Source of the DNA: Candidatus Omnitrophota bacterium
Lineage (GTDB): Bacteria; Omnitrophota; Gorgyraeia; Zapsychrales; Fredricksoniimonadaceae
NCBI GenBank assembly: GCA_030650275.1
Contig: JAUSEK010000003.1
Coordinates: forward strand, 1-44,834
Direction of reading: 5' to 3'
Length of the DNA stretch: 44,834 bases
A model generated the notes under the pieces. That model had not been told where the DNA came from. It made no database searches and saw nothing but the letters and a program-made list of their open reading frames with translations. This document shows, one piece after another, positions 579-677 of the stretch; position 1 is the first letter of the stretch, and every line of letters begins with the position of its first letter. Made by a program: the position numbers and the translations under genes.

Positions 579-618
579 AAAAAATCCTCCCCCAAAACGT
601 CATTGTTTTAAGAGAGGA
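579..618 (-). terminator. Intrinsic terminator 1 in the nirB-like leader
   Basis: TCCTCTCTTAAAAC pairs with GTTTTGGGGGAGGA around the loop AATGAC, giving 14 contiguous pairs with three G-U wobbles, and six T follow (579-584). It lies upstream of the reductase start and would attenuate transcription unless the stem is disrupted. Confidence 0.75.
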
Positions 619-629
619 CATCTTTGCCC
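585..629 (-). promoter_or_regulatory. Putative ANTAR-type dual-hexaloop antiterminator with terminator 1
   Basis: Read on the minus strand, GGGC-AAAGAT-GTCC (616-629) forms a 4-bp stem with a six-base loop having A at position 1 and G at position 4. Directly after it, TTAAAAC-AATGAC-GTTTTGG (592-611) forms a second stem with another A1/G4 hexaloop, AATGAC. The second hairpin is the top of a longer 14-bp stem (585-618, with G-U pairs) followed by six T, an intrinsic terminator. The 3' arm of hairpin 1 overlaps the base of the terminator stem, so the two are mutually exclusive. Paired A1/G4 hexaloops are the known target of ANTAR-domain antiterminators such as NasR in nitrate assimilation, which fits the downstream gene. 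No ANTAR protein is seen in this window. Confidence 0.6.
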
Positions 630-648
630 TTTCAATCCATCTGATGTA

Positions 649-677
649 AGGTTACAACCTAATTATGGCTTTGTCAA
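649..677 (-). promoter_or_regulatory. Promoter of the nirB-like leader
   Basis: A consensus -35 box TTGACA (672-677) is followed after 17 nt by TAACCT (649-654), which keeps the important -12T, -11A and -7T positions of a sigma70 -10 box. It lies just past the rarA stop codon, so the leader and the reductase can be transcribed independently of rarA. Confidence 0.6.

Follow-up and report, generated by a model that had tools for sequence, protein, structure and literature searches.

Described ANTAR antitermination systems and the Omnitrophota locus

In the ANTAR antitermination systems described so far, the second of two hairpins overlaps the terminator (PMC3369931; PMC7496416). The EutV/EutW system of the Enterococcus faecalis eut genes (PMC3369931; PMC8934654) shares with the locus analyzed here adjacent hairpins with A1/G4 hexaloops closed by a C-G pair, a terminator that is mutually exclusive with one of these hairpins, and ANTAR residues that read G4. 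In eut, the first hairpin (P1) is free and the second (P2) lies over the terminator base, whereas in the Omnitrophota leader it is P1 that covers the base, with P2 forming the apex of the terminator; in addition, EutV is a phosphorylated response regulator, whereas the Omnitrophota ANTAR protein contains two GAF domains. Klebsiella oxytoca NasR, which acts on nasF (PMC7496416), is also a one-component sensor-ANTAR protein associated with a nitrate-assimilation operon, but it has a NIT nitrate domain in place of the GAF-GAF arrangement and a single target operon, where the Omnitrophota regulon includes amt, glutamine synthetase and nif genes. The ANTAR regulons of Desulfotomaculum acetoxidans and Pelobacter carbinolicus (PMC3369931) likewise have several attenuators on amt, glutamine synthetase, nitrogenase and nitrite reductase genes and two or more elements in one transcription unit, but they belong to other phyla, and their leader topology and regulator type were not described as those in Omnitrophota.

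ANTAR control of nitrogen genes is already known in other phyla (PMC3369931), so an ANTAR nitrogen switch in Omnitrophota is a solid finding that is not surprising in principle. As of a 2012 survey there was no characterized example of a GAF-ANTAR protein, and the collection of papers searched contained none on ANTAR in Omnitrophota.

The nirB leader contains two serial attenuators

The window, the entire 44,834-nucleotide stretch analyzed, comprises positions 1-44,834 of contig JAUSEK010000003.1 from a Candidatus Omnitrophota assembly (GCA_030650275.1; Gorgyraeia; Zapsychrales; Fredricksoniimonadaceae); those relatives that carry a name in the public collection are all Candidatus Omnitrophota. 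The 5′ part of nirB, encoding the large subunit of an assimilatory NADH nitrite reductase, lies at positions 1-469 of the minus strand and is cut by the contig end. The first-pass annotation of this DNA, made from the letters alone, had called the gene NirB-like, and the N-terminal part of the protein present in the window is indeed NirB by TIGR02374. Because the remainder of nirB opens a second contig, C25, the window's contig (C3) and C25 are presumed to be adjacent in the genome. On C25, nirD comes after nirB, and next are genes for a transporter of the NarK type (narK), an Fe-S subunit and a molybdoenzyme resembling NasA (nasA); this gene order is predicted to constitute a nitrate assimilation operon.

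On the minus strand, the leader begins with a promoter at 677-649 and extends to the start of nirB near 469; rarA ends at 690, just upstream. The promoter consists of a TTGACA -35 element (677-672), a 17-nt spacer and a weak -10 element, TAACCT (654-649); it was not among the listings of a consensus scanner, and the segment containing it (TTTGACAAAG..GGTTGTAAYCT) is kept in the leaders of the nirB orthologs of two relatives, G001 and G008. Farther away, a 6S RNA (Rfam RF00013, E 1.9e-9) lies at 2020-2178 of the minus strand, just upstream of rarA.

Between positions 630 and 594 (minus strand) there are two adjacent hairpins, each with at least three base pairs, a C-G closing pair and a six-nucleotide loop in which A comes first and G fourth (A1/G4). 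P1 (630-615) is AGGGC(AAAGAT)GTCCT and P2 (609-594) is AAAAC(AATGAC)GTTTT; the linker between the end of P1 at 615 and the start of the five-pair P2 at 609 is 5 nt, within the 5-12 nt of eut. An intrinsic terminator, T1, occupies 619-578, with a stem at 619-584 and a T-run at 583-579. P2 is the apex of T1, and the 3′ arm of P1 doubles as the 5′ base of T1, to which it contributes five basal pairs, making P1 and the terminator mutually exclusive. The paired A1/G4 hexaloops, the promoter and the overlap between the terminator base and the first hairpin had all been proposed in the first-pass annotation, and each is borne out. An extra hairpin upstream of P1, corresponding to the canonical P1, was expected at first and was dropped, because the conserved promoter leaves no space for it. 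The second hairpin does not overlap the 5′ base of the terminator in the window leader, where the first hairpin does so instead; such overlap is a description of the known cases, not a requirement for ANTAR binding.

The predicted fold of the leader has a z-score of -5.3, with 0 shuffles equally stable, and free folding favors the terminator by about 5 kcal/mol. When P1 is forced to form, the 11-bp upper stem of T1 persists, so exclusion by P1 is limited to the terminator base.

A second attenuator, overlooked in the first-pass annotation, follows at 541-484 of the minus strand. Its hexaloop hairpin, GGGC(GCGGAC)GTCC (541-528), has a G1/G4 loop and is followed by terminator T2 (531-484; stem at 531-493, then a T-run). 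Two attenuators are likewise present in each of the G001 and G008 nirB leaders. Between both attenuators of the window, at 571-552 (minus strand), is another terminator-like hairpin, TTAAGGCCTTGAGGCCTTAA, which has a tetraloop and is without an ANTAR hexaloop.

The element is conserved among relatives and associated with ANTAR genes

The P1-P2-T1 arrangement is near-identical in four loci whose flanks have diverged. Among nirB orthologs with a readable start, the window and G001 included, attenuators are upstream of 16 of 18 and the element is absent from the other 2, and the A1/G4 loops are kept in orthologous leaders, as the first-pass annotation would have predicted. More broadly, the pattern GGRC-RNNGRN-GTCC followed by a T-run is found in 65 of 92 related genomes, and the terminator pairing is mostly clear; a control pattern lacking G4, which is three times looser, yielded matches that by inspection were without terminator pairing. 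The metagenome-assembled genomes compared are incomplete. In loci fetched by protein similarity only, G4 is present in 57/60 of the hexaloops that overlap a terminator.

The nested layout, with P1 at the terminator base and P2 at the apex, is recurrent and not universal. Of 151 elements, 50 have a second R1/G4 hexaloop at the apex of the terminator and 36 have one upstream; with another letter in place of G4, the corresponding counts are 2-21 and 1-4. Pairing statistics for P2 are biased because leaders were picked for a pairing apex, and a fairer test is to compare the apex with that of other terminators. By a strict definition, an A1/G4 hexaloop caps 11 of 86 attenuators and none of 100 other terminators from these loci, so the enrichment of apex hexaloops is real and confined to a subset of attenuators. 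By the criteria used here a partner hexaloop is missing in about half of the attenuators; therefore, either one loop suffices or the partner is the neighboring attenuator. Two or three attenuators are present in 36 of 111 leaders. Variation was also seen in the hexaloop stem, which in nirB leaders of several relatives (e.g. L049:1293 and L094:1403) is often GGAC...GCCC, where the third pair becomes an A.C mismatch and the other pairs are kept; this form accounts for 15/151 elements overall.

A covariance model, the check suggested in the first-pass annotation, was built from the leaders of 27 relatives, leaving out the window leader and the sister genome. It matches the window leader with 72.3 bits (E 2.2e-17, E-values being rough), and its best two matches in the whole genome are the nirB leader and the leader of the amt gene that adjoins the ANTAR gene. 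Across the 92 related genomes, the model has matches in 62 of 74 with an ANTAR gene vs 5 of 18 without one (Fisher p 9e-6, a value that overstates independence because the genomes are kin). Some of the five ANTAR-negative genomes with matches are incomplete, which does not apply to G060 (95%) or G040 (93%); these two are rather complete and have no detected ANTAR gene, yet contain attenuator-like elements. Outside the order, genomes G081-G091 have ANTAR genes, mostly encoding shorter proteins of about 243 aa, and the covariance model found no targets in them.

The genome encodes a single GAF-GAF-ANTAR protein

A search of the genome for ANTAR genes, also called for in the first-pass annotation, found one above the cut-off (PF03861, E 7.5e-22). 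Its 409-aa product has the domain order GAF-GAF-ANTAR, and the gene is located on contig C15, where it closely precedes amt, glnK and a long ORF predicted to encode a type III glutamine synthetase (GSIII). This amt gene is preceded by an intergenic region, the second-best match of the covariance model in the genome, in which hexaloop hairpins and a terminator follow the order known from other systems.

Alignment with EutV shows that the GAF-GAF-ANTAR protein retains the residues that contact G4 in the EutV-RNA structure (R142, K149, E160 and Y164) as well as the Met172 plug, and that it has H, D, C and S in place of the backbone-contact residues R168, N173, R175 and R177. Fold searches with the GAF domains returned generic tandem-GAF matches plus the GAF domain of EI-Ntr, to which the first GAF is closest (fold match 3ci6, TM 0.90) and which is reported to bind glutamine (PMC4848567). 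The second GAF resembles that of NifA, which binds 2-oxoglutarate in Azotobacter (PMC8219145), and is weakly similar to the nitrate sensor NreA (39.8 bits).

The regulon points to nitrogen status as the probable signal

The 88 proteins encoded downstream of the elements include 30 Amt proteins, 25 glutamine synthetases, 8 NirB and 3 NifH. In loci retrieved solely with the pattern, the Amt, glutamine synthetase, NirB and NifH kinds accounted for 49 of 68 downstream proteins. Since the same switch precedes ammonium-uptake, glutamine-synthetase and nitrogenase genes, the element looks like part of a general nitrogen-control network across the order and not a nitrate switch.

The first-pass annotation had proposed nitrate-responsive ANTAR antitermination in a little-studied phylum. 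The covariance match, the ANTAR gene and the A1/G4 loops uphold ANTAR antitermination ahead of nirB; the nitrate response is not supported. A nitrate-specific switch like that of NasR on Klebsiella nasF, in which nitrate or nitrite would activate the ANTAR protein and so permit transcription of the nirB operon, would suit a nirB-nirD-narK-nasA gene set, the precedent of known nas operons under such control, and the weak likeness of the second GAF to NreA. However, the sole ANTAR protein of the genome has no NIT domain, its gene adjoins amt-glnK-GSIII, 60 of the 74 ANTAR-positive genomes lack a nirB ortholog, and elements also precede amt, glutamine synthetase and nifH genes, so we regard a nitrate-specific switch as unlikely. 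The signal is probably nitrogen status rather than nitrate, because most ANTAR-positive genomes are without nirB and because the GAF domains are similar to those of EI-Ntr and NifA.

In three relatives, a gene for a LuxR-type (GerE) regulator is located directly upstream of nirB (L090, L086 and L100, from G018, G044 and G056, respectively), and that of G018 is itself preceded by a nested ANTAR leader nearly identical to that in the window.

Proposed mechanism and other explanations

We consider it very probable that the nirB operon is governed by two serial attenuators under antitermination by a GAF-GAF-ANTAR protein that senses nitrogen status. By default, the transcript would fold into T1 and T2 and transcription would stop. 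The active GAF-GAF-ANTAR protein, encoded elsewhere beside amt-glnK-GSIII, would bind the hexaloops of P1 and P2; with P1 held, T1 would lose its bottom five base pairs and the remaining stem would be parted from the T-run, and as a proposed consequence RNA polymerase would read through. The same protein is predicted to control amt, glutamine synthetase and nitrite reductase genes and, in some relatives, nitrogenase genes, with its GAF domains most likely sensing internal nitrogen status in the form of glutamine and/or 2-oxoglutarate. More tentative, and in our estimation doubtful, is the proposal that the completed terminator presents the second recognition loop, so that the protein can dock on the apex and pull the base apart, and that the protein reads glutamine or 2-oxoglutarate directly and serves as the main nitrogen regulator throughout the order.

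Attenuation in general involves terminators with alternative pairing, so a riboswitch, a leader peptide or another antiterminator protein (e.g. one of the BglG/SacY family) might produce a similar leader. Such a device is very improbable here, as an Rfam search of the window and 14 relative loci returned no family for the nirB leader, the loops, closed by C-G, agree with the consensus for ANTAR targets from EutV and NasR SELEX, and the element tracks the ANTAR gene. Least likely of all, and rejected, is the notion that T1 and T2, which resemble good terminators and lie close to the end of rarA, simply end transcripts from that gene and bear hexaloops by chance, given the promoter between rarA and the hairpins, the conserved loop letters, the match to a model built without this leader, the association with nitrogen genes, and the lack of A1/G4 apices among other terminators.

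Antitermination by the GAF-GAF-ANTAR protein in response to nitrogen status, if correct, supplies a predicted nitrogen-control network for an uncultured phylum, one that operates by RNA attenuation and can be read from DNA alone. It also provides a concrete set of candidate targets for GAF-type ANTAR proteins, and the layout of the leader offers a test of whether two free hairpins are necessary for ANTAR action or a terminator apex can serve.
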